From Hericium rajendrae (lineage: Eukaryota; Basidiomycota; Agaricomycetes; Russulales; Hericiaceae), in assembly GCA_033439255.1 (NCBI GenBank), contig CM065879.1, positions 2,274,501-2,338,500 on the forward strand: a DNA stretch of 64,000 nucleotides. Direction: 5' to 3'. Under the pieces are notes generated by a model. It saw only the letters and a list, made by a program, of their open reading frames with translations. It did not search any database and had not been told where the DNA came from. Shown here piece after piece: positions 1-32,229 of the stretch (the stretch's first letter is position 1; every line of letters begins with the position of its first letter). The translations under genes and the position numbers were made by a program.

Positions 1-2516
1 CCGCTTCTTGTGCTTCTTCGTTAGCCAAGTCCAAGCGTACTTTTGCCAATGAGATGTCTGGGCCTACAGTTAACATTGCGGGCTACTACCAGAACTCGCA
101 AAATGGCGCACCGTTGACTGGTTCCTTGTACGGATTCTCGCATGACTTGTCTTCATCCCAGGCCGTGATCATGGAGTCCCATTGCTCGATGATTTCTTGC
201 GGGAAAGTCTGCTTCATGTCGTCGAAGTTACGCTGCTGCTTACGGAGCAGCACGACAGCCTCCTTCAGTGAAGCAGAGATGTGCTCTCCTATATGGACAG
301 CATCTCAGTAAATGCATGAAAACCACGAGCAAAGGCACGCACCTGTCGACACCGTCTTGCGCCAATTCATCGCACCAAAAACATCGTTCAGGGTCTCATG
401 ACGTCCACCAAATGACATTTCGTGTGTACTCAGGGAGGCGCCGTTCGTTTCGGACCAGTTAGCTTCAATCCCCTCACCGCAGGTCCTTCCTACTCCTTCC
501 GTGAAGTTGAAGGAGTACCGCACTTGACAACTTGCACCGTGCGCGGGCAAATGGAACTTGGGTACGACGAAGATGATCTCGGTCTTCGTGAGGTCGATGT
601 GCAATTCGACTCCAAAGTTCTCGAGCATGCGCTTGATGAAATTCTTGGAGTACTGGCATGCTATGTCATACGAGATGCCGAGCAGCTTCCAGCATTCGGC
701 GGCAACCATGATCGTCATCAGAATGAGAAAATCCATATTAGCATACCTTGAAAATGGGTGAGCATTTGCAAAGATCCTCGAGATAAGATCACGTCAAGGG
801 GCTTACCGTTCACCGCGCTCCAGATCGCCAACGCCGTTTGGACGAAAAAATGAATGGCGCGCACAAATAACGGCGCCAACGCCATTGACAGTGAATCTCT
901 TCTGTGCTGGAGTATTTGCATGGTCTATAGCTGCGAAGCTCGAGTCGCAGGCTTTCATCTGTTTATCACAGGGACACTGGTTAGTCTGGACATAACTTAG
1001 GAGTGTTGCTGACTAACTTCGGTCTCGTTCTCGTGTTTCGACAAGTGCGCCTTGTACGCGGCGTCCGGAACAAAATAAGCCCAGCCAGGTGCTAATTCAA
1101 TGTCCTGGTGGCCACGGTTCTTGAGCTTCAGTTTGAAATTCGCATCCATCGCGAAAAGCATTCTATACAGGAACCTGATTTGATTTTTGAGTTAGAGCTC
1201 TGATCGGGGAAAGTTCCTGATCTGGCTTACTGAAGATGCGGCGGCACAGATTGCCAGTTATCCGGCAGGTTTCTTCCTGGATGGGGACATCTGGGGCACT
1301 CGACCACAAGGCTTCCGAGCGCAGTCCCTCGGATCCCAGATAGATCGTGACCACGCCCACAACGCTTGACCATTCGAATGTGCCGATAGCACCGGGCGGC
1401 GCGAGTGAACTCGTGATACCGGTCCTGCGGAGCGATCGAGATCTCGTCAGATGGTTTATCCTGTATCAGCTGTGCACCACATACCTTGGGCTTGTTAATA
1501 CCACTGCCATCTGTAAGTTTGACTATGCCGCCATAGAAATCATAGGCATTTGTCTTTGCTTGTAGTGTCATTGCATGAAATAGCTGGAGAGTCCGGAGGG
1601 TGACCGCAGTCTGAGGGCGATCGAAACTGACCGGCCACCATCGGACCCGAAGCAATTGGATATAGGCTTTAGATGACCCGACCTGCGCGCAGCCACAAAA
1701 CCGGGCATGAACAGTATGAATACCCGAAACGTCGATGAGCATCATTTTCTGATATGTCGTATATGGATTTGGGCAGGCAAGACCTTCGTGGCCTAGCTGG
1801 ACGATGAGCCCGAGGCCTGCTAGAGTCGAGCGTTCAAAATGGTCTCCGTTCCACTTCTATAAAACGATAGTTAAGCAAGAAGTGTGTAGAATAAAAGGTA
1901 TCAACATGCCTGTATTCTATGAAGCGGATCACGCGAATGACGCGCTACGATGCAGGAGGTGCACTCTAGGCACGAGTATGCACAGTCGATGCAGCGGGTA
2001 TCGGCGGGCGAGTCAGAATCACAATTCGGACAGGTCGATGACCCGCTTTGCGAGCCGGGGCCTTCATGACGAAGTAATTCGTCCAGGATTGTGTCGCGCT
2101 CTTTCTCGAACTTCTTCAGCATATCAATCTGAGTATAGCAGTTAGCAAGGAAGGAAACCGACCCGGGAGAACCTCACCCGTCTCATTCTTGTTTTGCGCC
2201 CACCACGACGAGTACGCTTTCGTCGGCGACCGGTCTGCACATCTGCCGAGGTCACTAGAATCTCTTCACTGTCTTGCCATGGTGCGTCAAGGTGATCTTG
2301 CTGATCTTCCGGCGGTACCGCGTCGACAGGCGTCGTAGCCTTCTCGAGTTGAATGTTCGAGCTGCTAGCCTCGACCTGGGTGATCTTCGCCCTCGTCTTC
2401 TGGTGAGTGCTGTGAGGCACGGTGACGGTGGTATGTCTGGAGGTACTAGGAGCGTCGTCATCGTCGCTTATGCAGATAGGCTGAAGGGTCTTTCGCTTGC
2501 GTTTCTTCGTAGACAT
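1..2516 (-). CDS. KDZ transposase, CxC2 type, copy 1 (C-terminus outside window)
   Basis: Transposase of the cut-and-paste KDZ family, expected to bind the terminal repeats and act in the nucleus. The chosen start at 2516 opens a Lys/Arg-rich N-terminus (MSTKKRKRKT) followed by an acidic ISDDDD patch. A CxC2-type zinc cluster (CPNC, later CIDC, CLEC, ending in PLHRI) lies at 1901-2122. The three likely catalytic acids are all visible: D in AMDANFKLK near 1150, D in YDIACQY near 660, and E in GEGIEANWSE near 465. Several short introns interrupt it. One, after PLHRIQ near 1903, appears to use a GC donor (GCATGT) instead of GT. The reading frame keeps matching copy 2 up to the window edge, so this copy's visible part looks intact, unlike the N-terminus of copy 2. 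Confidence 0.88.
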
Positions 2517-2715
2517 GGCACCGGAGAGCACAACGGGAAAGGATGGGCGGAGATACGAATAAGAAAAGGACGGAGAGGGGGAGAAGGCACTACGACATCG
2601 TCTTAGGGATCTAATTATCTATGTAGCTAAGCGAAAATAGTCAGCGGCTTTCAAAATCCGTACAGAGAACGAAAAATCCTCTTATTTATGCTGCCCATTC
2701 CATTAGCTCAGAGAG

Positions 2716-3410
2716 TTACACAAAAACGAAGAGATGAACAAACCTGCAACCCATAAAAACGAGTGCGTGGTCCCCCATCGCCTGCAGCATCATATCGCGG
2801 CCCGGCGAGAGCAGCTCCACCTCCTGGTGAAGGCCGGCAATGAGCCTGCGCACGCGATGCAATTCAGCCTTGGAGCTCGGCGAGTTCTTGTGCAGGAGGT
2901 CGCTGGCGACGGTTAGATGGCCATCGATCAGCGCGCGTATGACTTGGTTGTATTCGTCCACCTTGGGTGCGCAAGGTGCGGTGCCGTCCGCAGAACCGAT
3001 AATTTTGACGCGTAGTTCTCGACATTGTTCCCAAAGTTGAGTCTCGTCCGACAACATTTGGTCAGTGCGGTCGGGATCCTTTCGTCTGTGAGAGTGAATT
3101 ATGGAGTTGGAATAGGGCCTACAGAAGACGCTATGGTCACCGTCATACATCGCTCAAATGTCAGAACTTACGGACGCAAACCTGCCACGGTGGCCCGCCT
3201 AATGCTTTCCTCCACCTCCCGCTCCTTCTTGCTGATTTTCCGATGCCCTATACGCGTGATTCTGACGTACTCGCGCTGGTACGCTCGACGGGACTTGTTA
3301 TTTCTGGCGCCGTTCAACAATGACGTCCCAGTCAACAACAGATAGCTATTTAAAACCGGACCTACTTACTTTAAATAATAAGACTCATTGCATGAGTGCC
3401 CCTTTGCCAT
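2716..3410 (-). CDS. small basic KDZ-associated protein, copy 1
   Basis: I do not recognise the family. A consistent three-exon model starts at 3410 (MAKGHSCNESYYLK). It splices through GTAAGT...CCAG into a basic exon (NNKSRRAYQREYVRITRIGH, then HRKISKKEREVEE), and through a second GTAAGT intron into the long exon ending at 2716, giving a protein of roughly 210 residues. Both junctions keep frame. The N-terminal third is rich in Arg and Lys and likely helical, which would suit nucleic-acid binding; the C-terminal two thirds look like an amphipathic helical bundle. The identical gene in copy 2 supports it as a genuine element gene. The true C-terminus could differ if the GCAG-GTTTG near 2738 is another donor. 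Confidence 0.6.
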
Positions 3411-3932
3411 AGAGAGGAGTGCAGCGAAAAAGTGGTTGAGTGAGGACTACGAACGAAGCGAGAGCAACAAGAACAATGAAGCGAAAGGCCGCGCTGAGTC
3501 TGAGGCTGTGGCCGTGGCAACTTTGGCTACATCCGCGTCTTGAAGTGGGCTTCGCTCCGCATACATATCTAACTATTCCCTCCTTCCAAATGCTTCGGCT
3601 ACAGCTATCACTTGGAACTCTTTCTAATAGAAGGGGGCATGATATTTATTTTGCTTGCAAGTAATCTGAGATAAGTGAGGTAGCTACAGACATGTAAACG
3701 AGACCTGACATATGTTTTTGAGTGCTTGTCTCACATTATTGCCAAAGTAACATTTCCGTGTACTGTTCAAGTTCGCAGTCAGCAGTCGTCAACTAGTAGA
3801 AGTAAAATGGCTTCGTCGGTATAATAAAAAGCTCATTGGACAGATATATAAATTGATTCGCAGACGGGAATGTGGATATTGGTTAACCAGCGGCAGCAAC
3901 AACTTCGAAGTATCTACGACTATCTATCGCAT
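3411..3932. other. intergenic spacer inside KDZ copy 1
   Basis: About 520 bp between two minus-strand genes of the element, AT-richer than its surroundings. It should hold the promoter of the small basic gene and the 3' end of the SIM/RNase H1-N gene. No convincing reading frame is seen on either strand. The same spacer is at 26123-26644 in copy 2. Confidence 0.5.
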
Positions 3933-5127
3933 CTACATGCGTGCCTCAAACCACTCGACGGCCTCCTGCAAAGTACTAAAGCATCGGAACACGCAGTCGA
4001 AAGCGCTCAAGATCTCCACGCGAAGTTGAAGGCTATCGACGAAAGACAATCAGCATGTAGCACGGTTGACATTTAAAGATGGAAGAACTCACGAAGGACG
4101 ATAATATATCGCCGGCTGCATACCATTCGTGACAGCCCAGTATGGCAAAGGGTCCAGCACTGAACTCAAAGGTCCATTGGAGATTGAAGTTGGCAGGCGA
4201 GAAGAGCTTGCGACGGCGTTTGAAGGAGGTATGCGCCTCGACGTGACTTCGTTGTTGCGACGATGCACACCAGTGGGTACATCGGGCATGGTGACAGTAG
4301 TCGTCGTCGTGTGTGCAGTCTCGCGAGCTTGAAGGGAGGAAGCAGCAGCCTGGCGCATTTGCGATGCAACATCAGCTGCCCTATTGTCGACGGCGCAGTG
4401 ACATTCGGATGCAGCCGCTGCCTGCACATTGTTCCCGCCACTACCACCGTGACCGTGGTGGTTATCTCCACCGCTGGAGGCGTTCGACTGCCCGGTAAGG
4501 TTCTGGTGCCGATCAGAAGGATGAAGAAGTCCAATATATAAGTACATACCTCCAGCGAGATGTTGAGCCTGAGATCACCAGCTGGTAGGAGCCCTGCAGG
4601 GATGATGACGCTGACTGCAGACCTGTTCGTCGACACGACGACATGGGTCGTGTATGGGTGAGGTTCATCGTCTACCGAGAAGATGGAGTCAGCAGATGAC
4701 ATGTTGGTAGGCTGAGCATTGTTGGCCTCGTCGACGGCCATGGACTCGTCATCACTGGAGATGTCAATAACGCTCCCTCGGCCAGTAGTATCGCTGGAAA
4801 TGTCGATAACGCTGTCAGTGTCACTGGAGAGATCAATGACGCTGCCGCTGTTGCCGGCGTCGTGGTTTACGGCCCCGGAAGGCTCATTGGAGGGCTCGAT
4901 GGAGTTGCCGCGCTCGTGGCCGCGAACGTTGGATGGTAAGTCGACGACGCCATCGTCGATATTGCCTGTGAGGTCTCCGGCATTGCGGACATGCTCAGTC
5001 GCCATGAGCATCTCATCATCGCCGTTGCTCGAAGGCGCGGGAGAGAGGGAGCCTGAAAATGTCACTGAGTCTGTTTGGGATGTAGGTTTGGACGTGAGAG
5101 TAGAATAAACGTACAGTCTTCAGCCAT
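3933..5127 (-). CDS. SIM-repeat protein with RNase H1 N-terminal-like domain, copy 1
   Basis: The model starts at 5127 with a tiny exon (MAEDC), then a GTACGT...TTTTCAG intron, a long acidic exon, an intron near 4490-4550 and a last intron near 4020-4092, stopping at 3933. The first half is acidic and disordered and carries three tandem motifs of the SUMO-interacting type: VIDLSSD, VIDISSD and VIDISSD, each followed by acidic residues. The C-terminus, formed across the last intron, reads PYWAVTNG, PAIYY, FRCFSTLQEAVEWFE. This fits the RNase H1 N-terminal / viroplasmin fold (Y-x-V-x-x-G, GIY, F-x-x-F-x-T-x-x-E-A), which binds RNA-DNA hybrids and double-stranded RNA. No RNase H catalytic domain follows. 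The role is unknown; binding SUMOylated chromatin proteins plus a nucleic-acid hybrid is inference. Confidence 0.65.
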
Positions 5128-5552
5128 TTCCTATGGTCGCTGGTGAAGGGGAAACTGATGAGGGACGCTAGCGACACAGACAACAATTAGAGCAAGGATT
5201 ATTTAGGGGGGAGGGATGAAAGATTCCACAGGCAGGCGAACAGACTACGAACAGACCCTGACAAAAGATTGATCAGTTCGGATTGCAATAGCCGATGGTG
5301 CCGCTCGTGAATTTAAGTGGAACAAGCATTCCGCCGACGTACCGAGGCCTTGGCCACGACTTGCGAATTGGATGATCGTGTGGCAACGAGGGAGCAAAAC
5401 AAAGAAACAAATAAGGACGATGGACTCGAGCACGAACTGGTATTTACTACTTCCCCTGATAAGGCAGCAAGCGTCGTCGACAACTTGCTATAAATCCTCC
5501 TCGTTTGCCGTTTGCAGTCGCGTTTTTATCTGTTGCGCTATTCTGCTTAGCT

Positions 5553-8245
5553 ATGTGGACGACGAAACCCCAACTCACATACCTCAACTCCTATCTGCCC
5601 GAGTTCAGGCAGCTCCAGAAGAAAAATCGGTCCGGCGACATATGGGAGCGCCTCTACGAGGGCTGGTTCACGAAGTGGCCGGAGGGCCCATCGGGCTCCA
5701 AAGATAGGAAGGTAAGCACTTACTTCACATAAACACTAGGCAAATACTCACCCTGCTAGAATAGAGGATTAAGGAGTGGTTCAATAACCGTACGCGTGGT
5801 GCTGGCGGAGGCAACAAAGGGCGGCGGGTCCTTAAGCTTACGCACAGGACTTCCCGCAAGCTCTCACCGTATCAGATCTACCAGAAGCTGTACTATAAGT
5901 CCAAGCTTCAAGGCAAGATCAATAAAGCGTACAAGGCTTACCTGCTGGGTCTACCGGAAGGCGATACCCCCCAATCGCGCCTGGTCTTCCGCAACAAGCT
6001 CTGCATCGAGCTTCTCGAGGATGAGTCTGCGGACATCAAAGCAGAAGTCCAGAAGGAGTTCGAGAAGCAGAGTTCGCCTGCGAGCGAGGGCGCGACGCCG
6101 TCACCGGACATGACGGACTCAGATCGTCAGCAACAGCTGCTGACTTGGGAGAAGTGCGTTAATTCCATCCTGAATGAAACGAAGGGAAGACTGACATACC
6201 GCCAGGAACATCGAAGCTTTGCTGTGCACCGCCGAAGTTCTTGTCCGTGAGGTCTTCGAGCAAACCGGTTGGGTCTGCGTGTTCGACTTTGGCGGTCCGA
6301 GGCCTAGCGCTGGCGGAAAGATAGAATCCTTCAGGTCAGTGCAGTCTCGACAAATGACAGGCTCTTTACTTATCGAACGATTCGCTGGGCTAGCGTCCAC
6401 ACAGAGGCCGAGGGTGGCATTTCATTCAAGAAAAGCTACGCTGGCTTCCACGACTTGGTTGAGAAGCCATTTGCTGAGTATCTTCACAAGTACTATCGTG
6501 AGTGATGTGCATCTCAGTAAGGGCAACGGTCTAACAAATTTGCAGCTAAGAACGTGCGCGATAGTCGAGCACTCAAGCCGCAGAACGCCGATGGCCTTGA
6601 CCAGCCCGGAGACAAGGTATCTGAGACAGAAGATGGTGCTGATGATGGGCGAGTATCTGACGAGGATGAAGATGGTCCCGGCGACAAGTCGAAGGAGGTA
6701 GACGAGACCTCTCGTGAAGATATCGACGTCCAGTCCAACGATACCGAGGACGCCCTCGTTTCGACAGCTGCAAAGTCTAGAGTAAATCCGTATATGCAGG
6801 AACGCGAGGACAACATCACTCGGAACCGGCGCCTTTTGGACGACATCGACCGCCAAATGCTTGATGTAAGTGGGTCGCAGCCACTGGTTCCTAAGAAACC
6901 AGCCCCCAAGCCGAGGAAGAAACGCGCGGACACCATGGTAGAGCGCACTATAGTCACTCGTCAACGGGCAAGTGGTGGGGCGTGAGTCAATATCAGAATG
7001 CTTTATTTTGCGCGTAACTTACCGAGTATTTTGACCAGCGCATCGGCCGAAGATACGACAGCCTCGAAGACTACTGACAAGACCATAGACATGGCGGACG
7101 AGACGGGCGAAGACAATGTAGGCGGCCACGAGAACACCCCCACGCCCGACCCTGCCACGTCCAACGGCGAGTCCGCCGTCTCGCAAAGTGCCGCTGCTGC
7201 GACTGCCATATCAAGGGACATACCCGACCCTGAGACGTCCGCCGAAGTCGGGGCTGTGGGTTCGAATGCCTCTACCACTGCCGCCATGCCGATCGACATC
7301 ATCCCTGGCCCTGTAATGTCGAGCGAAGTTGGATCCGTGGGTGCAGGCATCGTCGCTGCGGCCACTATGACTATGGACGTAGATTCGACGGAGGAAAGCC
7401 GCGGGGCATCGCCGGCAGAGGAAGGCAGCGGGCGTCGCCGGCAGGAGAGACAGACACGTCGTCCGGCCAAGGACAAGATGGTGCCGAAACCTCTGGACAG
7501 AACGGTCCTGGAGAGACATCCCCGAACGAAGAAGACAGCAATGGCGGATCGCCGCCGAACGGAGGAGGTTCTGGCAGCTCGCCGCCGAGCAGAGGTGGTC
7601 CTGGCGAAGCGCCGGCAGAGGCAGAAGAGAATGTGCAGGAACTTGGAGATGCGCCAAGTGATGCGCCGCAGTTGGTCATGGAGATGTTTGAGTTCTTCAA
7701 GACCGGTCCAGAGGGGACCGAATGGGTCAGTATCGTGAATAACTGGCTGAAGATCGAGGCCGCGCTCGGGTACCCGGAGGGCACTGTGAGTGATTCATGC
7801 TACTCGTCTGAGAAACCTGGTACTCACATATCTATAGAACCGCAAGGAGTTCCTCGGCTCTAAGAATCGCCCACTTGCGGTCCAAGACTGGATCAAGCGT
7901 CATCGCAAGTTCACCAGCATACCGTCGCTGGGTCCCTTGTCAGCTTACGGGAACAGCTGGAGGATGTGGTGGAAATCCTTGCAGCCCAGCTGGCGGTTCA
8001 TACCGGATGTCGAATGGCCCCTGCATCGTTCGGGTAACGCAGATGAACGTTGGAGCCAGGTGATGAAAGGGGGGAAAAACGGGCTGGGGATGGTGCTGAT
8101 AACGCTCGTTTGGTGGTCTCGAAAGGCAGCCACGAAGGCCGAGATCGGCGAGCTGAATTCGGCGCTCGAAGACGTCGAATATGTGATGGGAGAGGTCGTC
8201 CGTGTCGCAGAGGCAGGTGAAGACGTGGTGATGGGTGACGCCTAG
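5553..8245 (+). pseudogene. WFNNR-motif KDZ-associated protein, copy 1 (frameshifted)
   Basis: A multi-exon plus-strand gene divergent from the three others. The start at ATGTGGACG (5553) is preferred over the upstream in-frame ATG, since the 16 extra residues look like read-through of a leader. Exon 1 ends at 5711 (SGSKDRK, then GTAAGC). The next exon begins RIKEWFNNRTRG, which resembles a homeodomain recognition helix, followed by a Lys/Tyr-rich helical stretch (LSPYQIYQKLYYKSKLQGK). Acidic and Pro/Gly/Ser-rich linkers follow. The last exon ends with GKNGLGMVLITLVWW and stops at 8245. DNA binding is inferred from the motif only. Compared with copy 2, one G is missing in the run near 7432, which shifts the frame and truncates the protein at about 7738, so this copy is probably inactive. 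Confidence 0.65.
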
Positions 8246-8659
8246 GAAAAGCTTGGGGTCCGTGTGTTCGTGGGCGCAGTAAAGGCGCCCAAATTCGGGA
8301 AATACACGTAACTAAGTGCTTCGTATAGTACTTAGGAGCCTGTCAAATAGTCAATACATCGTCTTTTACTTCCGTTAAGGCTCCTGACCGACTTACCGCA
8401 CCGACTTCACATTGCTCAGCCAAGCTTCTCTACTTATTCGTTTTAGTGCTTCATCGTGCAGTTCCCGTTTAGGAAAGTACATTGAAATTTCAATCCCGCG
8501 CGCTCGACCGATCGTCCAGGCAAATATACTCACTGGTAGATATCAAAGAGCTAATAGAACAAAGTGCAGAGGCCCTACCATCTAAAATCTATCGCATCTT
8601 TCAAGTGAAATGTCTTGGCTTGATACCAAAACCTCACCAGTACTAAATACCCGTACTTA
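8246..8659. other. non-coding spacer between last KDZ gene and terminal repeat, copy 1
   Basis: About 410 bp with no reading frame I can support. It holds the 3' untranslated end of the plus-strand gene and leads into the terminal inverted repeat. The counterpart in copy 2 is 30960-31373. Confidence 0.5.
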
Positions 8660-9515
8660 CCCGCCCACACATACACGAAATTCTGCTAAGTCGGTCGGTC
8701 ACGTGATCTGACACGTCAGCGCAACGCGTTAGAACAACTTCCCCGTGGTGGTGCAAACAGGATCACTAGAGTGCTAAAAAGTCATCAAGTATCTACGAAA
8801 ATGCATCACAATCGAATGTGCGAACAATTTCCGAAAGAAATCTGTTATTTTATTATCAAACCCGGACTGGTATGAACCCATAAGAGCTGATATTAATACA
8901 GTAACTGGGCAAAACGGTACGAAGATTTGTATAGCAATCGAAAGTGTGTAGGTTGCTATCCTGAATGCTGATTACAACGGTAGGGATAACGTCAAAAATG
9001 AAGCACAAACGTGCATGCAACGCATCCTAAACGGATCCCCGAGATCCCCGAGATCCCCGAGGCATGCCCCGAGACATGCCCCAAGGTGGACCCAAGGGGC
9101 TGGCTGGCTGCCGCACATGCCGTGCATCACCCACAGTGGTAGCAAGCACAGCCACAACTGGCAGCCGCACCATCGAGCCTAAGCCGAATCACTGGACTTA
9201 GGCCTGCACAGCATTTACTATAGTGATTCTGCAGCAAAGCGGCACCCTGCGGCACCCTCATTATAAAAAACTACCATACGTCTAGCCATCAATGCCCTAT
9301 AGCGGGAGCTGGGGGTCCCCTGTCCCCCCCTGCGGCCCCCTACTATAAACTACTACCATACCACTGTTAATCAAGCCAGAATACTACTACATGCTGATAT
9401 ATCCTCAAACTACTACCACACTGTTATAATAGCATGGTGGAAAAAGTACTTGATGCGACCACTAGGCTGTATTGATATAACAGTACTATAGTTATTACTG
9501 GGACCACCACGGCTG
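8660..9515 (-). repeat. right terminal inverted repeat, KDZ copy 1
   Basis: This is the reverse complement, with visible divergence, of the left terminal repeat of copy 2 at 20228-21085, and matches 31374-32229 almost base for base. It contains a short tandem GATCTCGGG-type repeat near 9030-9060 and ends TGGTCCC...GGCTG on the plus strand at 9515. Confidence 0.9.
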
Positions 9516-12500
9516 CTCCCATGCGACCCCACGCGTCTCTCCTGGCTCTACGACCCCAGGGCCGCCACCCGCTGGCCGGTGATTTTCCGGGTAGGGGTTG
9601 CGCGGATCGACGCCGCCGGTACGCAGGCCATGGACTGCGACCGCGCGGAGGCCCTCACCATCGCCACCCAGCTCTCGGACTTCTTGGGTGTCGTCCCCTT
9701 GCCCCCCAGCCCTGCTGATTGGCGTACCTACCCCGCCCTCCGCGAGCCTGAGGACCACACCGCTGTCATCCGGCGCGTGCAGGCTGACGTCCTCGAATGG
9801 CGCGGCTACGTCTTTTGGCTGCTGTCCCACGTCGGCGACGACTGGCGGCGTATTATCCTGCCCGATCCCGCCTGGCGCACCGCAGTTGAAAGCTGGGGCT
9901 TTCCCTTCACAGACACCGTCGGCACGCTGCTCGATCTTGGCGTCCCCGCGCGCGACCTCCCGTCCGTGGAAGTCCTGCTCAGCCACGACGTCCCGGTCCG
10001 CTACTTTTGGGCGCACCGCTTCGACAACGGGGGTTTCGACCACGTCGCCCTCCTTCACCCTACTCGGCGTGCCGCTCGGGATTGGCACGACAACCTTGTG
10101 GCTCAGACAGCGCGCAACCGTGCTCAGCGCCGGCACGACAAATCGGTTCACCGCCGTGAGACGCGCGCGCCCGACGCTCGCCCTGCTCCTGGCCATTCAA
10201 ATCCCGGGCCGTACGCGTACCAGTACCACGCGCGAGCCAACGAGGACGACCCTAGCGAGAAGGTAGTCGGCCGCAAGCAGCTGGCCTACTACAAGCGGAC
10301 GTTCCGCCTTCGGCTCGGCTGGCCCTCGGCCTCTTTCGCCACGTTCTTCACGGACGACATACTGGACAGCGACGAAGATGACTGGGAGGAGGCGCGCGTG
10401 CAGGGCCCTCACATCAGTAACCTCGTGAGTCCGCCCCGCTCGCCCGCCACCTCCCCGTCCGCCCCTATGGATGTCGACCCCGCCAGCCCGTCTCGTCGGG
10501 CGCCCAGCCCCGTCCCTTCCCCTCCTCTGCCGGCGAAGGGCAAGGGCAAGGCACCCGCGCCGCCTCCTCGCACGGCCTCCCGCGACCGCGACGACGAGGT
10601 GAGCCTGGGCAGCGACTTGTCCGACGATTGGAGCCCGGCTCTCGCTCAAGCCGTCGCCGCCTCCCGCGTCCGACCAGTCACGCCCGACGGCGCCGGGCCC
10701 AGCACTCTGCCCGCGCCGTCCGCCAGTCTCGCCCCACTCCCGCCCCGGCCCACGTTTTCGCCGCCGCGCCCCGCCGTGTCCTGTCCCCGCAGCGACTCCG
10801 CCGCGGACGACGGGCACGCCGCGCAAGCCAAGCGCCCTCAGCGGTGGCCGAGCCCCGTCCACGGCCGCACCTCAGCGTCCCGCTCCGGTGGCCTCCGGGG
10901 CCGCTTCGTTTCCGGGTCGTCGCTGGCGGACCGTATCACCTCGCCCACCCTCGCGCAGCGTTTGGACCCCGGCCTCGCGCCCTGCGATGCAGCATCCCGC
11001 GGCGATTGCGCCGCGCCGGCCCTGCTGCAACGCCTGTCGGATGCCTCCAACCCTCCGCCGCATCTCCTCCTGCGTATGCGTCCTTCCGCCGTTCCCGCCG
11101 CGCCGCCTGCTGCGCCCGCCCCTGTGCCGCCTGCTGCCACAGTCCCCGCGCCAGTTGTCCCGCCGCCCGTCGCCCCGCCACCAGTCGCCCCTCCGCCCGC
11201 TTCCGTTCTCTCGACTGCAGCCGCGGCTCCACTGCCGCTTCCTTCGCGGCTGGAGCCCATTCATCCTGCCGTTCCCGTCGCGCTCGGCGTCGACGCCGCC
11301 GCATCGCCGCTTGCCGTGCCTCCCGTCCCCGCCTCCGCCGCGCGGGGCACTCTTTACTTTTCCGCACGCTCCGTCTTGCGCGTCGCGGTGCACCGCTCCG
11401 CCGCCCCGTCTGCCCCGCTCACGGATCTTTTGCGCGACCTGGTGCAGCGCGGCATTGCGGTCACGTGGCACGTGCCTCGACCCCTGCCCGCCCCTGGCGT
11501 GCCCGCGGCCGGCCCTCCGCCCGACTTCCTGCTCACTTCATGGGCTGCCGCCGCGTCCCCGTCGCTGTCGCTTTACCTCGGTATGCTTCACGACCTCCTC
11601 CAGCGGCCGCACGCGCGGCAATGGCTCCTTCGCGGTGGCTTGTCCTGGCGTCTGGCTCTCCATTACGGCCCTCCTTCCCTTCTCGCGGACGCGCTCTCCG
11701 GGCCATCCTCCACTGCGCTTATCTCGGGCCGGGGTAGTCCTTGGGATCTGCCCGTGTCCAGCATCGGCGATTTGCCGACGGACGCGGAGACAGCGGCCCT
11801 CACTGGCCAGACTGCCGTCGGGGGTTTCTGGCCCCCAGTCGACATATGGGACCAGTCCGCCGCCTGGACTGGGGAGTGGCATACCGCAAACGAGCATTGG
11901 TTCCAGCAACGTCTCGTGCAGCTCGCTGCGGGTGACTCCCTGCTCCGCTCCGAGTCGTCTTGGCGTCGCCAGGTTCGTCGTGGCCTCCTTACTTCGGCGC
12001 GCCACCTCGGGGATGGCCTGGGTTCTTTACTCAGTGCTAATCAAATGGTCAACGCGTATCCCGAGGCCGCGGCTTTGCCTTCCCTCTCCTTCCTGGCGCT
12101 CGCGCCTGCGCCGCCGCCCGCGCCCGCTGCCGCGCCTCCGCCCGACCCCCGCCCCGCCGCCGGATCCGAGCCCGCACCTCTAGTGTTCTCCACGGTGCGG
12201 CTTGACTAGGGGGGCTTTGTAACGGATGCCGGGTGCCGAGTGATGTCATGCGACGCCAGGCGCCGGGAGCCATCACGCGCCAACACGGAATCTCGAGGTA
12301 GCCGGGCCCGGAAGCGCCGCCTTCCCGATTAGGTAGTCAAGCCACACCGGCCGACCTACTGTACAGTTGAGGGCGGACCTGCAATCTTATTTTCTTCCGT
12401 ATTTAGTGTACGTCTTGTGTAGGAAAAAGATCATCATTTTCATTGTCTATCATCTTCCAAATCTTACTTCTCTTTTCTTGCTTTTTCCTTTCTCTCGAAC

Positions 12501-20214: not shown

Positions 20215-20220
20215 CTTGAG

Positions 20221-21085: not shown

Positions 21086-21223
21086 CACGGACATGACATA
21101 GGCTTTGGCTCTGTCATTGATTGTATCTCACTCAATAAATATAAGTTCTGCTCAACTTCTGACTTAGTTATAGTGTACGATGCTTCCAAATGGACTCAAT
21201 TGAATTATATCAAACTATTGTAA

Positions 21224-24200
21224 TTAACTACTTTCCTCGCCTTCGCTCTCGACATACTCAATCCCAGATTCCTCCGAAGTCTCGTCATCGGATGACGAGA
21301 CATCCGATTGTACTTGTTCTGGCATATCTGGAAGCAGTCCATCCAGCGTGTTAAGTGACGAGTTGGTGTCTGGAGGTGGTGGTGGTAATGTCTCGGACGT
21401 CGACGCAGCCGCTGTCGTCACAGATGCATGCGGTAGCACCGAATCATTTGTCACTGAGCCCTGTGGTTCTTGAGGCCAGTCAACCGTGAGGTGGTACTTT
21501 TCCAGTAGAGGGATCCATCGTCGTTTGAAGGACGCGGCCAGATCCTCGTAGATTTGTGCTTGCCTTAGTGCATAAGCGCGGATACCTACTTTGAGGTCTG
21601 AAGCAGCGTTGGGGCGCAACGACACGCGTGCCCGCCACCATTCGGCCTTCCACAGCATAAATACGACGCTGCGACGCATTTCCTCCTGCAGGAGGAGAAC
21701 CTCCTCCTTCCAGCGACGCATTCACGCTCGACTCTTCGCGTAAGTCACACGCATACCTGACATCGTGAATAAGACTTGTCAGAAGAGATAATCAGGATGT
21801 TGGAATAACTTACTGTCGTGGACCTCCTCAGCGGACATGTCTTCTCCATCAAAATGGTCGCGTGCATCATGAGTGAGTACCCGCCAGATCCACGGGACTT
21901 CTCGTCGCCCTTCTCCGAGTGCCTTCTCTCTTGCCTTCTTCTTCTTGTGGCCGGCATTAGTCTCGTCGTCGCTGTTCACATCATCGTTTTCATCGTCGCC
22001 CGATGGATTGACCATGTCGCTTCGTTTCAAAGGGAGCAGCCGATGACGCCATGCCGCCACCTCATCCGGGTCGAGAGCATTCAGCGCGAGACGCGAGGCA
22101 TTATACCGTTCGAAATGACGGTCGCGCTTCGACAGGACCTTCTTGATGACGGTCCGGGCGCGTGTGTGTCGCTTCTGGCTGGGACCATCGACATTCGCAG
22201 TCTTGTAATGACGAAGGCCCATGGCAGTGCGAATGAAGCGGCGGATTTCGTGGAGGGAGGTCTCACACTCGGCCTCCCGCAATCGAGCCTCCTTGGATGC
22301 TAAGCCCGAGACCATGCCGGCTTCTCTCAAGGCCTCCGGGACATCACTCGGCATCCACAACCTGTCGAATTCAGGTTTGGGGGGATCGGCCGCAGAGACG
22401 CCGTCTTCGGGGGTAGAAGCGTCGGAGGTTTGAGCAGAGGTGAGTGTGGAGACGACTGGCATGTACACGGCCTGTATGGCGCGCCAGGTGTTGATTCGGT
22501 GTCGAAGGGCATTTCGACTGTCTTGAAGGGATACCTTTTTCGTCGCAGTGTCGTTATCTTTGTTTCCATCTTTGTGGCGCAGCGTACGCCTACCGGAGTA
22601 TAAGAAAAAGGTTTGATTCATGAAATTAAATACGTACTGTTGCTCTTGTAAATCGAGACCCATAGCAAGGAATGTACTTGCAGTCGTCTCATGGAGCGAC
22701 ACCGCACCATTCTCCGCTTCTTGTGCTTCTTCGTTAGCCAAGTCCAAGCGTACTTTTGCCAATGAGATGTCTGGGCCTACAGTTAACATTGCGGGCTACT
22801 ACCAGAACTCGCAAAATGGTGCACCGTTGACTGGTTCCTTGTACGGATTCTCGCATGACTTGTCTTCATCCCAGGCCGTGATCATGGAGTCCCATTGCTC
22901 GATGATTTCTTGCGGGAAAGTCTGCTTCATGTCGTCGAAGTTACGCTGCTGCTTACGGAGCAGCACGACAGCCTCCTTCAGTGAAGCAGAGATGTGCTCT
23001 CCTATATGGACAGCATCTCAGTAAATGCATGAAAACCACGAGCAAAGGCACGCACCTGTCGACACCGTCTTGCGCCAATTCATCGCACCAAAAACATCGT
23101 TCAGGGTCTCATGACGTCCACCAAATGACATTTCGCGTGTACTCAGGGAGGCGCCGTTCGTTTCGGACCAGTTAGCTTCAATCCCCTCACCGCAGGTCCT
23201 TCCTACTCCTTCCGTGAAGTTGAAGGAGTACCGCACTTGACAACTTGCACCGTGCGCGGGCAAATGGAACTTGGGTACGACGAAGATGATCTCGGTCTTC
23301 GTGAGGTCGATGTGCAATTCGACTCCAAAGTTCTCGAGCATGCGCTTGATGAAATTCTTGGAGTACTGGCATGCTATGTCATACGAGATGCCGAGCAGCT
23401 TCCAGCATTCGGCGGCAACCATGATCGTCATCAGAATGAGAAAATCCATATTAGCATACCTTGAAAATGGGTGAGCATTTGCAAAGATCCTCGAGATAAG
23501 ATCACGTCAAGGGGCTTACCGTTCACCGCGCTCCAGATCGCCAACGCCGTTTGGACGAAAAAATGAATGGCGCGCACAAATAATGGCGCCAACGCCATTG
23601 ACAGTGAATCTCTTCTGTGCTGGAGTATTTGCATGGTCTACAGCTGCGAAGCTCGAGTCGCAGGCTTTCATCTGTTTATCACAGGGACACTGGTTAGTCT
23701 GGACATAACTTAGGAGTGTTGCTGACTAACTTCGGTCTCGTTCTCGTGTTTCGACAAGTGCGCCTTGTACGCGGCGTCCGGAACAAAATAAGCCCAGCCA
23801 GGTGCTAATTCAATGTCCTGGTGGCCACGGTTCTTGAGCTTCAGTTTGAAATTCGCATCCATCGCGAAAAGCATTCTATACAGGAACCTGATTTGATTTT
23901 TGAGTTAGAGCTCTGATCGGGGAAAGTTCCTGATCTGGCTTACTGAAGATGCGGCGGCACAGATTGCCAGTTATCCGGCAGGTTTCTTCCTGGATGGGGA
24001 CATCTGGGGCACTCGACCACAAGGCTTCCGAGCGCAGTCCCTCGGATCCCAGATAGATCGTGACCACGCCCACAACGCTTGACCATTCGAATGTGCCGAT
24101 AGCACCGGGCGGCACGAGTGAACTCGTGATACCGGTCCTGCGGAGCGATCGAGATCTCGTCAGATGGTTTATCCTGTATCAGCTGTGCACCACATACCTT

Positions 24201-25301
24201 GGGCTTGTTAATACCACTGCCATCTGTAAGTTTGACTATGCCGCCATAGAAATCATAGGCATTTGTCTTTGCTTGTAGTGTCATTGCATGAAATAGCTGG
24301 AGAGTCCGGAGAGTGACCGCAGTCTGAGGGCGATCGAAACTGACCGGCCACCATCGGACCCGAAGCAATTGGATATAGGCTTTAGATGACCCGACCTGCG
24401 CGCAGCCACAAAACCGGGCATGAACAGTATGAATACCCGAAACGTCGATGAGCGTCATTTTCTGATATGTCGTATATGGATTTGGGCAGGCAAGACCTTC
24501 GTGGCCTAGCTGGACGATGAGCCCGAGGCCTGCTAGAGTCGAGCGTTCAAAATGGTCTCCGTTCCACTTCTATAAAACGATAGTTAAGCAAGAAGTGTGT
24601 AGAATAAAAGGTATCAACATGCCTGTATTCTATGAAGCGGATCACGCGAATGACGCGCTACGATGCAGGAGGTGCACTCTAGGCACGAGTATGCACAGTC
24701 GATGCAGCGGGTATCGGCGGGCGAGTCAGAATCACAATTCGGACAGGTCGATGACCCGCTTTGCGAGCCGGGGCCTTCATGACGAAGTAATTCGTCCAGG
24801 ATTGTGTCGCGCTCTTTCTCGAACTTCTTCAGCATATCAATCTGAGTATAGCAGTTAGCAAGGAAGGAAACCGACCCGGGAGAACCTCACCCGTCTCATT
24901 CTTGTTTTGCGCCCACCACGACGAGTACGCTTTCGTCGGCGACCGGTCTGCACATCTGCCGAGGTCACTAGAATCTCTTCACTGTCTTGCCATGGTGCGT
25001 CAAGGTGATCTTGCTGATCTTCCGGCGGTACCGCGTCGACAGGCGTCGTAGCCTTCTCGAGTTGAATGTTCGAGCTGCTAGCCTCGACCTGGGTGATCTT
25101 CGCCCTCGTCTTCTGGTGAGTGCTGTGAGGCACGGTGACGGTGGTATGTCTGGAGGTACTAGGAGCGTCGTCATCGTCGCTTATGCAGATAGGCTGAAGG
25201 GTCTTTCGCTTGCGTTTCTTCGGACATGGCACCGGAGAGCACAACGGGAAAGGATGGGCGGAGATACGAATAAGAAAAGGACGGAGAGGGGGAGAAGGCA
25301 C
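21224..25301 (-). CDS. KDZ transposase, CxC2 type, copy 2 (start codon region altered)
   Basis: The full-length transposase gene. It has the CxC2 cluster at 24614-24835 (CPNC, CIDC, CLEC) and catalytic acids in AMDANFKLK (near 23860), YDIACQY (near 23370) and GEGIEANWSE (near 23180). A long helical C-terminal region lies at 21779-22789, and the tail is acidic and Ser-rich (SSSDDETSEESG), stopping at 21224. The ATG that starts copy 1 corresponds to 25227, but here TA is missing just after it, so that ATG is out of frame with KKRKRKT. The frame is still open upstream to an ATG at 25301, used here as the outer limit; translation from it would add an unrelated hydrophobic leader. Whether this copy makes active transposase is doubtful. 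Confidence 0.85.
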
Positions 25302-25427
25302 TACGACATCGTCTTAGGGATCTAATTATCTATGTAGCTAAGCGAAAATAGTCAGCGGCTTTCAAAATCCGTACAGAGAACGAAAAATCCTCTTATTTAT
25401 GCTGCCCATTCCATTAGCTCAGAGAAG

Positions 25428-26122
25428 TTACACAAAAACGAAGAGATGAACAAACCTGCAACCCATAAAAACGAGTGCGTGGTCCCCCATCGCCTGCAGC
25501 ATCATATCGCGGCCCGGCGAGAGCAGCTCCACCTCCTGGTGAAGGCCGGCAATGAGCCTGCGCACGCGATGCAATTCAGCCTTGGAGCTCGGCGAGTTCT
25601 TGTGCAGGAGGTCGCTGGCGACGGTTAGATGGCCATCGATCAGCGCGCGTATGACTTGGTTGTATTCGTCCACCTTGGGTGCGCAAGGTGCGGTGCCGTC
25701 CGCAGAACCGATAATTTTGACGCGTAGTTCTCGACATTGTTCCCAAAGTTGAGTCTCGTCCGACAACATTTGGTCAGTGCGGTCGGGATCCTTTCGTCTG
25801 TGAGAGTGAATTATGGAGTTGGAATAGGGCCTACAGAAGACGCTATGGTCACCGTCATACATCGCTCAAATGTCAGAACTTACGGATGCAAACCTGCCAC
25901 GGTGGCCCGCCTAATGCTTTCCTCCACCTCCCGCTCCTTCTTGCTGATTTTCCGACGCCCTATACGCGTGATTCTGACGTACTCGCGCTGGTACGCTCGA
26001 CGGGACTTGTTATTTCTGGCGCCGTTCAACAATGACGTCCCAGTCAACAACAGATAGCTATTTAAAACCGGACCTACTTACTTTAAATAATAAGACTCAT
26101 TGCATGAGTGCCCCTTTGCCAT
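25428..26122 (-). CDS. small basic KDZ-associated protein, copy 2
   Basis: Same three-exon gene as at 2716-3410, starting MAKGHSCNESYYLK at 26122 and joined by two GTAAGT introns to a basic helical region and a helical C-terminus, about 210 residues. Transition differences from copy 1 near 25886 and 25955 fall in an intron or in the basic exon and do not break the frame. The family is unknown to me. Confidence 0.6.
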
Positions 26123-26644
26123 AGAGAGGAGTGCAGCGAAAAAGTGGTTGAGTGAGGACTACGAACGAAGCGAGAGCAACAAGAACAATGAAGCGAAAGG
26201 CCGCGCTGAGTCTGAGGCTGTGGCCGTGGCAACTTTGGCTACATCCGCGTCTTGAAGTGGGCTTCGCTCCGCATACATATCTAACTATTCCCTCCTTCCA
26301 AATGCTTCGGCTACAGCTATCACTTGGAACTCTTTCTAATAGAAGGGGGCATGATATTTATTTTGCTTGCAAGTAATCTGAGATAAGTGAGGTAGCTACA
26401 GACATGTAAACGAGACCTGACATATGTTTTTGAGTGCTTGTCTCACATTATTGCCAAAGTAACATTTCCGTGTACTGTTCAAGTTCGCAGTCAGCAGTCG
26501 TCAACTAGTAGAAGTAAAATGGCTTCGTCGGTATAATAAAAAGCTCATTGGACAGATATATAAATTGATTCGCAGACGGGAATGTGGATATTGGTTAACC
26601 AGCGGCAGCAACAACTTCGAAGTATCTACGACTATCTATCGCAT
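26123..26644. other. intergenic spacer inside KDZ copy 2
   Basis: Counterpart of 3411-3932. No supported gene on either strand. Confidence 0.5.
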
Positions 26645-27839
26645 CTACATGCGTGCCTCAAACCACTCGACGGCCTCCTGCAAAGTACTAAAGCATCGGA
26701 ACACGCAGTCGAAAGCGCTCAAGATCTCCACGCGAAGTTGAAGGCTATCGACGAAAGACAATCAGCATGTAGCACGGTTGACATTTAAAGATGGAAGAAC
26801 TCACGAAGGACGATAATATATCGCCGGCTGCATACCATTCGTGACAGCCCAGTATGGCAAAGGGTCCAGCACTGAACTCAAAGGTCCATTGGAGATTGAA
26901 GTTGGCAGGCGAGAAGAGCTTGCGACGGCGTTTGAAGGAGGTATGCGCCTCGACGTGACTTCGTTGTTGCGACGATGCACACCAGTGGGTACATCGGGCA
27001 TGGTGACAGTAGTCGTCGTCGTGTGTGCAGTCTCGCGAGCTTGAAGGGAGGAAGCAGCAGCCTGGCGCATTTGCGATGCAACATCAGCTGCCCTATTGTC
27101 GACGGCGCAGTGACATTCGGATGCAGCCGCTGCCTGCACATTGTTCCCGCCACTACCACCGTGACCGTGGTGGTTATCTCCACCGCTGGAGGCGTTCGAC
27201 TGCCCGGTAAGGTTCTGGTGCCGATCAGAAGGATGAAGAAGTCCAATATATAAGTACATACCTCCAGCGAGATGTTGAGCCTGAGATCACCAGCTGGTAG
27301 GAGCCCTGCAGGGATGATGACGCTGACTGCAGACCTGTTCGTCGACACGACGACATGGGTCGTGTATGGGTGAGGTTCATCGTCTACCGAGAAGATGGAG
27401 TCAGCAGATGACATGTTGGTAGGCTGAGCATTGTTGGCCTCGTCGACGGCCATGGACTCGTCATCACTGGAGATGTCAATAACGCTCCCTCGGCCAGTAG
27501 TATCGCTGGAAATGTCGATAACGCTGTCAGTGTCACTGGAGAGATCAATGACGCTGCCGCTGTTGCCGGCGTCGTGGTTTACGGCCCCGGAAGGCTCATT
27601 GGAGGGCTCGATGGAGTTGCCGCGCTCGTGGCCGCGAACGTTGGATGGTAAGTCGACGACGCCATCGTCGATATTGCCTGTGAGGTCTCCGGCATTGCGG
27701 ACATGCTCAGTCGCCATGAGCATCTCATCATCGCCGTTGCTCGAAGGCGCGGGAGAGAGGGAGCCTGAAAATGTCACTGAGTCTGTTTGGGATGTAGGTT
27801 TGGACGTGAGAGTAGAATAAACGTACAGTCTTCAGCCAT
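26645..27839 (-). CDS. SIM-repeat protein with RNase H1 N-terminal-like domain, copy 2
   Basis: Identical by eye to the gene at 3933-5127: tiny first exon MAEDC, acidic disordered region with VIDLSSD, VIDISSD, VIDISSD in tandem, and a C-terminal RNase H1-N-like segment (PYWAVTNG, PAIYY, FSTLQEAVEWFE) completed across the last intron. That no difference is seen over about 1.2 kb, while neighbouring genes carry several, may reflect chance or a requirement for function. Confidence 0.65.
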
Positions 27840-28265
27840 TTCCTATGGTCGCTGGTGAAGGGGAAACTGATGAGGGACGCTAGCGACACAGACAACAATT
27901 AGAGCAAGGATTATTTAGGGGGGAGGGATGAAAGATTCCACAGGCAGGCGAACAGACTACGAACAGACCCTGACAAAAGATTGATCAGTTCGGATTGCAA
28001 TAGCCGATGGTGCCGCTCGTGAATTTAAGTGGAACAAGCATTCCGCCGACGTACCGAGGCCTTGGCCACGACTTGCGAATTGGATGATCGTGTGGCAACG
28101 AGGGAGCAAAACAAAGAAACAAATAAGGACGATGGACTCGAGCACGAACTGGTATTTACTACTTCCCCCTGATAAGGCAGCAAGCGTCGTCGACAACTTG
28201 CTATAAATCCTCCTCGTTTGCCGTTTGCAGTCGCGTTTTTATCTGTTGCGCTATTCTGCTTAGCT

Positions 28266-30959
28266 ATGTGGACGACGAAACCCCAACTCACATACCTCAA
28301 CTCCTATCTGCCCGAGTTCAGGCAGCTCCAGAAGAAAAATCGGTCCGGCGACATATGGGAGCGCCTCTACGAGGGCTGGTTCACGAAGTGGCCGGAGGGC
28401 CCATCGGGCTCCAAAGATAGGAAGGTAAGCACTTACTTCACATAAACACTAGGCAAATACTCACCCTGCTAGAATAGAGGATTAAGGAGTGGTTCAATAA
28501 CCGTACGTGTGGTGCTGGCGGAGGCAACAAAGGGCGGCGGGTCCTTAAGCTTACGCACAGGACTTCCCGCAAGCTCTCACCGTATCAGATCTACCAGAAG
28601 CTGTACTATAAGTCCAAGCTTCAAGGCAAGATCAATAAAGCGTACAAGGCTTACCTGCTGGGTCTACCGGAAGGCGATACCCCCCAATCGCGCCTGGTCT
28701 TCCGCAACAAGCTCTGCATCGAGCTTCTCGAGGATGAGTCTGCGGACATCAAAGCAGAAGTCCAGAAGGAGTTCGAGAAGCAGAGTTCGCCTGCGAGCGA
28801 GGGCGCGACGCCGTCACCGGACATGACGGACTCAGATCGTCAGCAACAGCTGCTGACTTGGGAGAAGTGCGTTAATTCCATCCTGAATGAAACGAAGGGA
28901 AGACTGACATACCGCCAGGAACATCGAAGCTTTGCTGTGCACCGCCGAAGTTCTTGTCCGTGAGGTCTTCGAGCAAACCGGTTGGGTCTGCGTGTTCGAC
29001 TTTGGCGGTCCGAGGCCTAGCGCTGGCGGAAAGATAGAATCCTTCAGGTCAGTGCAGTCTCGACAAATGACAGGCTCTTTACTTATCGAACGATTCGCTG
29101 GGCTAGCGTCCACACAGAGGCCGAGGGTGGCATTTCATTCAAGAAAAGCTACGCTGGCTTCCACGACTTGGTTGAGAAGCCATTTGCTGAGTATCTTCAC
29201 AAGTACTATCGTGAGTGATGTGCATCTCAGTAAGGGCAACGGTCTAACAAATTTGCAGCTAAGAACGTGCGCGATAGTCGAGCACTCAAGCCGCAGAACG
29301 CCGATGGCCTTGACCAGCCCGGAGACAAGGTATCCGAGACAGAAGATGGTGCTGATGATGGGCGAGTATCTGACGAGGATGAAGATGGTCCCGGCGACAA
29401 GTCGAAGGAGGTAGACGAGACCTCTCGTGAAGATATCGACGTCCAGTCCAACGATACCGAGGACGCCCTCGTTTCGACAGCTGCAAAGTCTAGAGTAAAT
29501 CCGTATATGCAGGAACGCGAGGACAACATCACTCGGAACCGGCGCCTTTTGGACGACATCGACTGCCAAATGCTTGATGTAAGTGGGTCGCAGCCACTGG
29601 TTCCTAAGAAACCAGCCCCCAAGCCGAGGAAGAAACGCGCGGACACCATGGTAGAGCGCACTATAGTCACTCGTCAACGGGCAAGTGGTGGGGCGTGAGT
29701 CAATATCAGAATGCTTTATTTTGCGCGTAACTTACCGAGTATTTTGACCAGCGCATCGGCCGAAGATACGACAGCCTCGAAGACTACTGACAAGACCATA
29801 GACATGGCGGACGAGACGGGCGAAGACAATGTAGGCGGCCGCGAGAACACCCCCACGCCCGACCCTGCCACGTCCAACGGCGAGTCCGCCGTCTCGCAAA
29901 GTGCCGCTGCTGCGACTGCCATATCAAGGGACATACCCGACCCTGAGACGTCCGCCGAAGTCGGGGCTGTGGGTTCGAATGCCTCTACCACTGCCGCCAT
30001 GCCGATCGACATCATCCCTGGCCCTGTAATGTCGAGCGAAGTTGGATCCGTGGGTGCAGGCATCGCCGCTGCGGCCACTATGACTATGGACGTAGATTCG
30101 ACGGAGGAAAGCCGCGGGGCATCGCCGGCAGAGGAAGGCAGCGGGGCGTCGCCGGCAGGAGAGACAGACACGTCGTCCGGCCAAGGACAAGATGGTGCCG
30201 AAACCTCTGGACAGAACGGTCCTGGAGAGACATCCCCGAACGAAGAAGACAGCAATGGCGGATCGCCGCCGAACGGAGGAGGTTCTGGCAGCTCGCCGCC
30301 GAGCAGAGGTGGTCCTGGCGAAGCGCCGGCAGAGGCAGAAGAGAATGTGCAGGAACTTGGAGATGTGCCAAGTGATGCGCCGCAGTTGGTCATGGAGATG
30401 TTTGAGTTCTTCAAGACCGGTCCAGAGGGGACTGAATGGGTCAGTATCGTGAATAACTGGCTGAAGATCGAGGCCGCACTCGGGTACCCGGAGGGCACTG
30501 TGAGTGATTCATGCTACTCGTCTGAGAAACCTGGTACTCACATATCTATAGAACCGCAAGGAGTTCCTCGGCTCTAAGAATCGCCCACTTGCGGTCCAAG
30601 ACTGGATCAAGCGTCATCGCAAGTTCACCAGCATACCGTCGCTGGGTCCCTTGTCAGCTTACGGGAACAGCTGGAGGATGTGGTGGAAATCCTTGCAGCC
30701 CAGCTGGCGGTTCATACCGGATGTCGAATGGCCCCTGCATCGTTCGGGTAACGCAGATGAACGTTGGAGCCAGGTGATGAAAGGGGGGAAAAACGGGCTG
30801 GGGATGGTGCTGATAACGCTCGTTTGGTGGTCTCGAAAGGCAGCCACGAAGGCCGAGATCGGCGAGCTGAATTCGGCGCTCGAAGACGTCGAATATGCGA
30901 TGGGAGAGGTCGTCCGTGTCGCAGAGGCAGGTGAAGACGTGGTGATGGGTGACGCCTAG
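28266..30959 (+). CDS. WFNNR-motif KDZ-associated protein, copy 2 (intact)
   Basis: The intact version of the gene at 5553-8245, starting ATGTGGACG at 28266 and stopping at 30959, with seven exons by my reading. Conserved parts are the N-terminal TKPQLTYLNSYLPEF region, the homeodomain-like RIKEWFNNR helix, the LSPYQIYQKLYYKSKL helix, VCVFDFGGPRP, and the C-terminal NRKEFLGSKNRPLAVQDW and WWSRKA segments. The central exon 29755-30500 keeps frame through a Gly/Ser/Pro/Glu-rich linker where copy 1 has lost a base. The gene is divergent from the SIM/RNase H1-N gene with a spacer of about 430 bp, which probably holds a shared control region. DNA binding is an inference from WFNNR. Confidence 0.7.
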
Positions 30960-31373
30960 GAAAAGCTTGGGGTCCGTGTGTTCGTGGGCGCAGTAAAGGC
31001 GCCCAAATTCGGGAAATACACGTAACTAAGTGCTTCGTATAGTACTTAGGAGCCTGTCAAATAGTCAATACATCGTCTTTTACTTCCGTTAAGGCTCCTG
31101 ACCGACTTACCGCACCGACTTCACATTGCTCAGCCAAGCTTCTCTACTTATTCGTTTTAGTGCTTCATCGTGCAGTTCCCGTTTAGGAAAGTACATTGAA
31201 ATTTCAATCCCGCGCGCTCGACCGATCGTCCAGGCAAATATACTCACTGGTAGATATCAAAGAGCTAATAGAACAAAGTGCAGAGGCCCTACCATCTAAA
31301 ATCTATCGCATCTTTCAAGTGAAATGTCTTGGCTTGATACCAAAACCTCACCAGTACTAAATACCCGTACTTA
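30960..31373. other. non-coding spacer between last KDZ gene and terminal repeat, copy 2
   Basis: Counterpart of 8246-8659 in copy 1; 3' untranslated sequence with no reading frame I can support. Confidence 0.5.
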
Positions 31374-32229
31374 CCCGCCCACACATACACGAAATTCTGC
31401 TAAGTCGGTCGGTCACGTGATCTGACACGTCAGCGCAACGCGTTAGAACAACTTCCCCGTGGTGGTGCAAACAGGATCACTAGAGTGCTAAAAAGTCATC
31501 AAGTATCTACGAAAATGCATCACAATCGAATGTGCGAACAATTTCCGAAAGAAATCTGTTATTTTATTATCAAACCCGGACTGGTATGAACCCATAAGAG
31601 CTGATATTAATACAGTAACTGGGCAAAACGGTACGAAGATTTGTATAGCAATCGAAAGTGTGTAGGTTGCTATCCTGAATGCTGATTACAACGGTAGGGA
31701 TAACGTCAAAAATGAAGCACAAACGTGCATGCAACGCATCCTAAACGGATCCCCGAGATCCCCGAGATCCCCGAGGCATGCCCCGAGACATGCCCCAAGG
31801 TGGACCCAAGGGGCTGGCTGGCTGCCGCACATGCCGTGCATCACCCACAGTGGTAGCAAGCACAGCCACAACTGGCAGCCGCACCATCGAGCCTAAGCCG
31901 AATCACTGGACTTAGGCCTGCACAGCATTTACTATAGTGATTCTGCAGCAAAGCGGCACCCTGCGGCACCCTCATTATAAAAAACTACCATACGTCTAGC
32001 CATCAATGCCCTATAGCGGGAGCTGGGGGTCCCCTGTCCCCCCCTGCGGCCCCCTACTATAAACTACTACCATACCACTGTTAATCAAGCCAGAATACTA
32101 CTACATGCTGATATATCCTCAAACTACTACCACACTGTTATAATAGCATGGTGGAAAAAGTACTTGATGCGACCACTAGGCTGTATTGATATAACAGTAC
32201 TATAGTTATTACTGGGACCACCACGGCTG
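31374..32229 (-). repeat. right terminal inverted repeat, KDZ copy 2
   Basis: Reverse-complement partner of 20228-21085 and near-identical to 8660-9515. It includes the tandem GATCCCCGA repeats near 31748-31780. Confidence 0.9.

Follow-up and report, generated by a model that had tools for sequence, protein, structure and literature searches.

The stretch analysed here (the window) comprises 64,000 nucleotides of the genome of the basidiomycete Hericium rajendrae (contig CM065879.1, hereafter C2; C2:2274501-2338500; genome of 46.8 Mb on 19 contigs). It harbours a complete copy and most of a second copy of a 12.0-kb repeat, which we assign, on its predicted domains and its ends, to the KDZ-type DNA transposons. 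The copies of this element differ almost exclusively by transitions that remove CpG dinucleotides, and we propose that this presumably reflects slow deamination of methylated CpG after recent insertion.

A 12.0-kb KDZ-type element and its three insertions

Copies of the element were searched in the genome with window positions 1-2000, 6500-9515, 20228-22713 and 24714-29212, stretches that jointly span its whole length; the resulting counts are lower bounds. Among the matches listed there are three near-identical copies, designated c1, c2 and c3 (Table 1), and other relatives of 64-78% identity. A 45-base match to the element end (93%) on contig C6 is a further match outside the three copies. 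Position 1 of c1 as it appears in the window is the edge of the window and not that of the element. Each copy is flanked by an exact 7-bp target-site duplication (TSD), which differs from copy to copy (CTCCCAT, GGTTGTT and GTTCTAT), and given this 7-bp reading all three copies start with CA and end with TG. For c2 and c3 an 8-bp duplication is also conceivable, provided that the final G is left out of the element; for c1 it is not. The three copies are separate insertions because each has its own 7-bp duplication. The element is bordered by inverted-repeat arms of ~850 bp that are 91% identical.

All three near-identical copies found sit within 57 kb of one chromosome (C2:2249928-2306729). A simple estimate, made after the cluster had been seen, gives a chance of ~4e-6 that three uniformly placed insertions span 57 kb or less, and local transposition of the copies is therefore likely. 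Segmental duplication of a single insertion would equally place three near-identical copies close together, but similarity among the copies stops at the element ends and the target-site duplication is a different one in each, so that we regard this explanation as practically eliminated. The observed/expected ratio of CpG is 1.04 in the 9,515 bases of c1 inside the window; this absence of depletion fits a young element. When measured on c3, the ratio falls to 0.54 and 0.49 in the outer 500 bases of the two element ends, compared with 0.84-1.29 in the other 500-base bins.

The genome search reports the transposase domain PF18758 for each of the three copies, and a CxC2 cysteine cluster accompanies it, the combination that characterises the KDZ superfamily. 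The 7-bp duplications and the 5'-CA..TG-3' ends point to a Kyakuja-like element; unlike two Laccaria families of Kyakuja, for which inverted repeats are said to be absent, it possesses such repeats. Zisupton or Dileera, which have 8-bp duplications, were considered and rejected since an 8-bp reading, though possible in c2 and c3, is impossible in c1. A second gene is oriented opposite to the transposase gene. A search with its 292-aa open stretch matched no Pfam family and gave no function for it. The same stretch has three weak matches in the genome (32-42% identity) that lie ~7 kb from KDZ matches at C17:343325, C6:2826256 and C17:426668, and judged from this arrangement it may represent a partner gene that is conserved in this KDZ lineage.

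The initial annotation had pointed to an association of mushroom KDZ elements with TET/JBP dioxygenases. Genome-wide this is borne out: of the 49 Tet_JBP matches, 39 have one of the 127 KDZ places used at a distance of no more than 6 kb. Distances were taken from start to start for all 49 matches (38 over Pfam's cut-off and 11 below it); the 127 places exclude further fragments of elements already counted and were drawn from the listed part of the 172 KDZ matches found. The association does not extend to the 12.0-kb element itself: none of the 49 Tet_JBP matches falls inside the three copies (six-frame search, introns ignored), and no Tet_JBP match was obtained among 20 open stretches of c2. 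Elsewhere in the window, a CxC6 KDZ-associated domain is present between c1 and c2 (14965-15624) and a caspase-domain open stretch at 50863-53061.

Table 1. Coordinates of the element copies and of their features (window positions unless preceded by C2).
Feature	Position	Strand	Remarks
Copy c1, full	C2:2272016-2284015	+	12,000 bases; left end 2,485 bases upstream of window position 1
Copy c1, part in window	1..9515	+	right 9,515 of 12,000 bases
Copy c2, full	20228..32229 = C2:2294728-2306729	+	12,002 bases; 5'-CA..TG-3' ends
Copy c3, full	C2:2249928-2261932	-	12,005 bases; 12.6 kb before window start
TSD GGTTGTT, left of c2	20221..20227
TSD GGTTGTT, right of c2	32230..32236
TSD CTCCCAT, right of c1	9516..9522		left one outside window
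Left terminal inverted repeat of c2	20228..21085	+	~91% identical to right arm
Right terminal inverted repeat of c2	31374..32229	-
Right terminal inverted repeat of c1	8660..9515	-
KDZ transposase gene, open stretch in c2	23018..23506	-	PF18758 positions 97-217 of 217, E 2.4e-37
CxC2 cysteine cluster in c1	1227..1856	-	PF18803, E 4.5e-35
Open stretch of CxC2 in c2	23940-24569	-	same as that of c1
Second gene, 292-aa open stretch in c2	29699..30577	+	oppositely oriented; without Pfam family; low complexity
Stretch without majority CpG loss in any copy	25957..29334 in c2; 3245-6621 in c1		alignment positions 5732 to 9111

Substitutions among the copies and in other repeats

Comparison of the window with itself by BLASTN aligned 1-9515 with 22714-32229 at 99.758% identity, with 18 mismatches and 4 gap openings (5 bases in total). 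The initial annotation had read about 18 substitutions and four small indels from the letters, all of them C/T or G/A and about 15 in a CpG context, and its counts proved accurate: all 18 mismatches are transitions, and at 15 of them one of the two copies has a CpG, the exceptions being copy-1 positions 928, 1599 and 7353. Since CpG holds 27% of the C and G bases in these 9,515 positions, this corresponds to a binomial p of 1.1e-6.

Alignment of all three copies found in the genome, with the differences classified by type and context as the initial annotation had suggested, yielded 36 substitutions, of which 35 are transitions, and 6 indel events. When polarised by majority, the substitutions comprise 28 C>T or G>A changes at CpG, 4 other C>T or G>A changes, 3 T>C and a single C>G. 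Thus 32 of the 35 transitions run in the C:G to T:A direction (p 4e-7), and the frequency of change at CpG is ~19 times that of the remaining C/G positions (odds ratio 19, p 1.3e-12). Neither the many transversions nor the missing CpG enrichment that had been named as grounds for abandoning the idea was encountered. Lost CpGs number 7 in c1, 10 in c2 and 11 in c3, and all substitutions are evenly spread (12, 13 and 11). The loss amounts to ~1.1% of the CpG dinucleotides per copy (28 of 5,070 CpG base positions, 1,690 in each of the three copies). Ten open stretches, which partly overlap and are perhaps not real exons, contain 12 nonsynonymous, 7 synonymous and no stop-making changes.

A different KDZ element, which bears TET/JBP, served as the control family; nine copies of it, distributed over eight contigs, were used, with 5.6-9.9 kb aligned and a KDZ match close to each copy. 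Only columns present in the copy L036 were counted; gap columns, columns with more than two bases and columns with fewer than four copies were dropped. The 155 singletons consist of 115 transitions that remove a CpG, a further 28 C>T or G>A changes, 5 transversions at CpG and 7 others, equivalent to a CpG odds ratio of 16.7, and lost CpGs also make up 56 of the 78 variants shared by several copies. The spectrum is consequently not special to the 12.0-kb element. Its amount varies among the control copies, from 1 to 53 singletons per copy, as age would make it. Copies L034, L038 and L040 form a group that is separated by ~30 or more CpG transitions from most other copies in 3.6 kb, compared with 6-18 within the group. 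Judged from such variants common to groups of copies, many changes in this family were probably inherited through transposition, which speaks against base-calling error and makes a process that inactivates copies immediately less likely. In both families GCG and ACG are the most and TCG the least frequently hit contexts.

A 627-bp repeat pair (window 12218-12844 and C2:2248106-2248732) shows 5 differences, and all five are CpG transitions.

Deamination, repeat-induced point mutation or assembly error

An excess of C:G to T:A change at CpG with little other change, the pattern expected from methyl-CpG deamination, was found in both families. We therefore consider the following sequence of events. 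Three copies of one KDZ element, each the product of a separate and fairly recent insertion, lie within 57 kb, and the host would then have methylated the inserted copies at CpG. The methylated cytosines would deaminate slowly and independently in each copy, converting CpG to TpG or CpA and leaving little else changed; deamination is presumably spontaneous and gradual. We assign a probability of about 0.8 to this combination of recent separate insertions, CpG methylation and slow independent deamination as the explanation of the spectrum. Deamination of methylated CpG after a very recent transposition had already been proposed in the initial annotation; the direction of change, the privacy of the changes to single copies and the ~19-fold rate at CpG are in agreement with it, and the cytosines concerned are presumably methylated.

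As regards the enzymes that could methylate the copies, the genome contains five matches to PF00145 at four places (L021, L022, L023 and L024/L025). L021 matches chain 7r76, listed as 'DNA repair protein Rad8', at 1e-71; we take this chain to be the DNMT5 of Cryptococcus. L022 weakly matches DNMT1 chains (0.0047), L024/L025 are DNMT2-like, and L023 is a methyltransferase-like match of unclear class.

The initial annotation had offered a mild process resembling repeat-induced point mutation (RIP) as an alternative. Such a process would target CpG in duplicated DNA during the sexual cycle and would act in a single burst or a few. It is favoured by the circumstance that only repeats were examined and that the recent ones all show the CpG pattern; a pattern of the same kind was named RIP in Ganoderma (PMC4457147). 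Of the PF00145 matches considered for a RID/Masc1 methyltransferase, the enzyme associated with RIP, L023 with its unclear class would also be compatible with it. RIP leaves changes in runs on one strand. In the present copies, however, C>T and G>A changes are intermingled, and no excess of strand runs was detected in any of the eight copies with at least 10 changes (lowest p 0.13; the power is low at 10-14 changes). CpA, the preferred target in RIP of the Neurospora type, is not favoured here: it accounts for 1 of 32 C>T or G>A changes in the 12.0-kb element, and for 6 of 143 among the control copies. TpCpG is the least-hit CpG context (odds ratio of 0.52 against the other three, p 0.0026). 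A change of only ~1% of the CpG dinucleotides per copy also speaks against a burst, and the grouping of control copies by shared CpG losses indicates that altered copies apparently kept transposing, although repeated hits may explain some of these shared variants. Because there are no strand runs and no preference for CpA, and TpCpG is disfavoured, we favour slow deamination of methylated CpG and consider a RIP-like burst unlikely.

An origin of the differences in the assembly has also to be considered, because long-read base callers might misread methylated CpG and repeats might escape polishing. Base-caller errors at methylated CpG do occur, and four one-base homopolymer contractions in c1 are of a kind that would suit this explanation. 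Caller error would nevertheless give a more even rate than the range of singletons in the control family, and L036 and L037 are only 4 substitutions apart in 3,591 bases. Variants are common to groups of copies, and copy-specific indels are rare in the control family, where 3.6 kb of the nine copies contain three, each longer than one base. We accordingly judge an artefact to be very improbable, clearly more so than a RIP-like process.

Several observations do not fit slow deamination of methylated CpG easily or limit its reach. The comparisons covered repeated DNA, so that a gentle CpG-directed process linked to duplication is a less likely but conceivable alternative. At the 3 T>C sites CpG is found in one copy alone, a misfit to a strict star history of the copies. 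They may result from shared history, repeated hits or reversals; since c2 and c3 agree at two of these sites and c1 and c3 at one, no single history can be derived from them. The four homopolymer contractions (alignment columns 2152, 5201, 7941 and 9919) are confined to c1 and perhaps represent slippage or residual assembly error; the one at column 9919 corresponds to window position 7429 and splits the open stretch of the second gene. The two inverted-repeat arms differ mostly by non-CpG changes (CpG transitions 15 of 69), and the two older repeat pairs of the window (49073/53870 and 62251/63491) are mixed in their spectrum (11 of 53 and 3 of 10). Copies of KDZ1 in Cryptococcus are described as carrying at most one methylated CpG (PMC12810828), and methylation of KDZ elements is therefore not universal. 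Finally, an even process would not predict that a 3.4-kb stretch in the middle of the element has, by majority, lost no CpG in any copy, although its share of the CpG positions would lead one to expect ~7.7 losses (gap p 0.0016; the test was selected once the data were known).

The quiet middle stretch and relation to known systems

This quiet stretch is the one lead that emerges from our analysis. Its CpG density is normal (observed/expected 1.03; 465 of the 1,690 CpG positions), and the variants in it are a T>C at 8284 and an indel at 7941. From the layout of the open stretches it appears to cover the regions in which both opposed genes start. The stretch could have escaped germ-line CpG methylation, around an apparent shared gene start region; we regard this as a tentative and rather doubtful idea. 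If true, the transposon would keep a methylation-free promoter island while its remainder decays. No comparable stretch was found in the control family, in which the largest gap is 367 bases (p 0.31); CpG variability is uneven there through one hot 500-base bin (p 0.0006 with and 0.41 without this bin).

CpG-biased decay of transposons has already been published for Ganoderma and other basidiomycetes, and the present case is real and mostly ordinary. In G. sinense 98.7% of the methylated cytosines are at CpG and transposable elements are more methylated than genes; three Ganoderma species show a CpG-preferring C-to-T change in transposable elements, with CpA second, that was called RIP, and nearly all affected elements of G. 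sinense are methylated (PMC4457147). Hericium resembles them in that CpG is preferred and C:G to T:A changes dominate, accounting for >87%, 90% and 91% in the three Ganoderma as against 32 of 36 here. In that study, families with identities down to 80% were analysed together (PMC4457147), whereas the near-identical copies used here allow tests of polarity, strand and context. The same CpG signature is reported for Microbotryum, Puccinia and Melampsora, basidiomycetes described as having a Masc2-type Dnmt1 without RID, and was read there as deamination of methylcytosine; in contrast to our finding that TpCpG is least hit, TpCpG is named as the site in Microbotryum (PMC4352252).

As for the element, 7-bp target-site duplications and 5'-CA..TG-3' ends are shared with Kyakuja (PMC12730594). 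Two Laccaria families of Kyakuja contain TET/JBP and lack inverted repeats, a statement made for these two families and not for all Kyakuja (PMC12730594); the Hericium element has long inverted repeats and is without a Tet_JBP match. KDZ1, KDZ2 and KDZ3 of Cryptococcus resemble it as KDZ elements that carry a cysteine-cluster domain, are bordered by inverted repeats and measure ~9-11 kb, but differ by duplications of 8 bp (KDZ1) or 4-8 bp (KDZ2, KDZ3), by CxC1 instead of CxC2 and by inverted repeats of 139-241 bp as compared with ~850 bp (PMC12810828).

The three insertions thus represent an unusually clean case of CpG decay, with nearly all changes polarised and almost no other mutation. With copies in unique flanks, listed private sites and a quiet middle they provide a small test bed for methylation calls. 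The CpG signature that has been termed RIP in some mushrooms can, our results suggest, arise through slow deamination.

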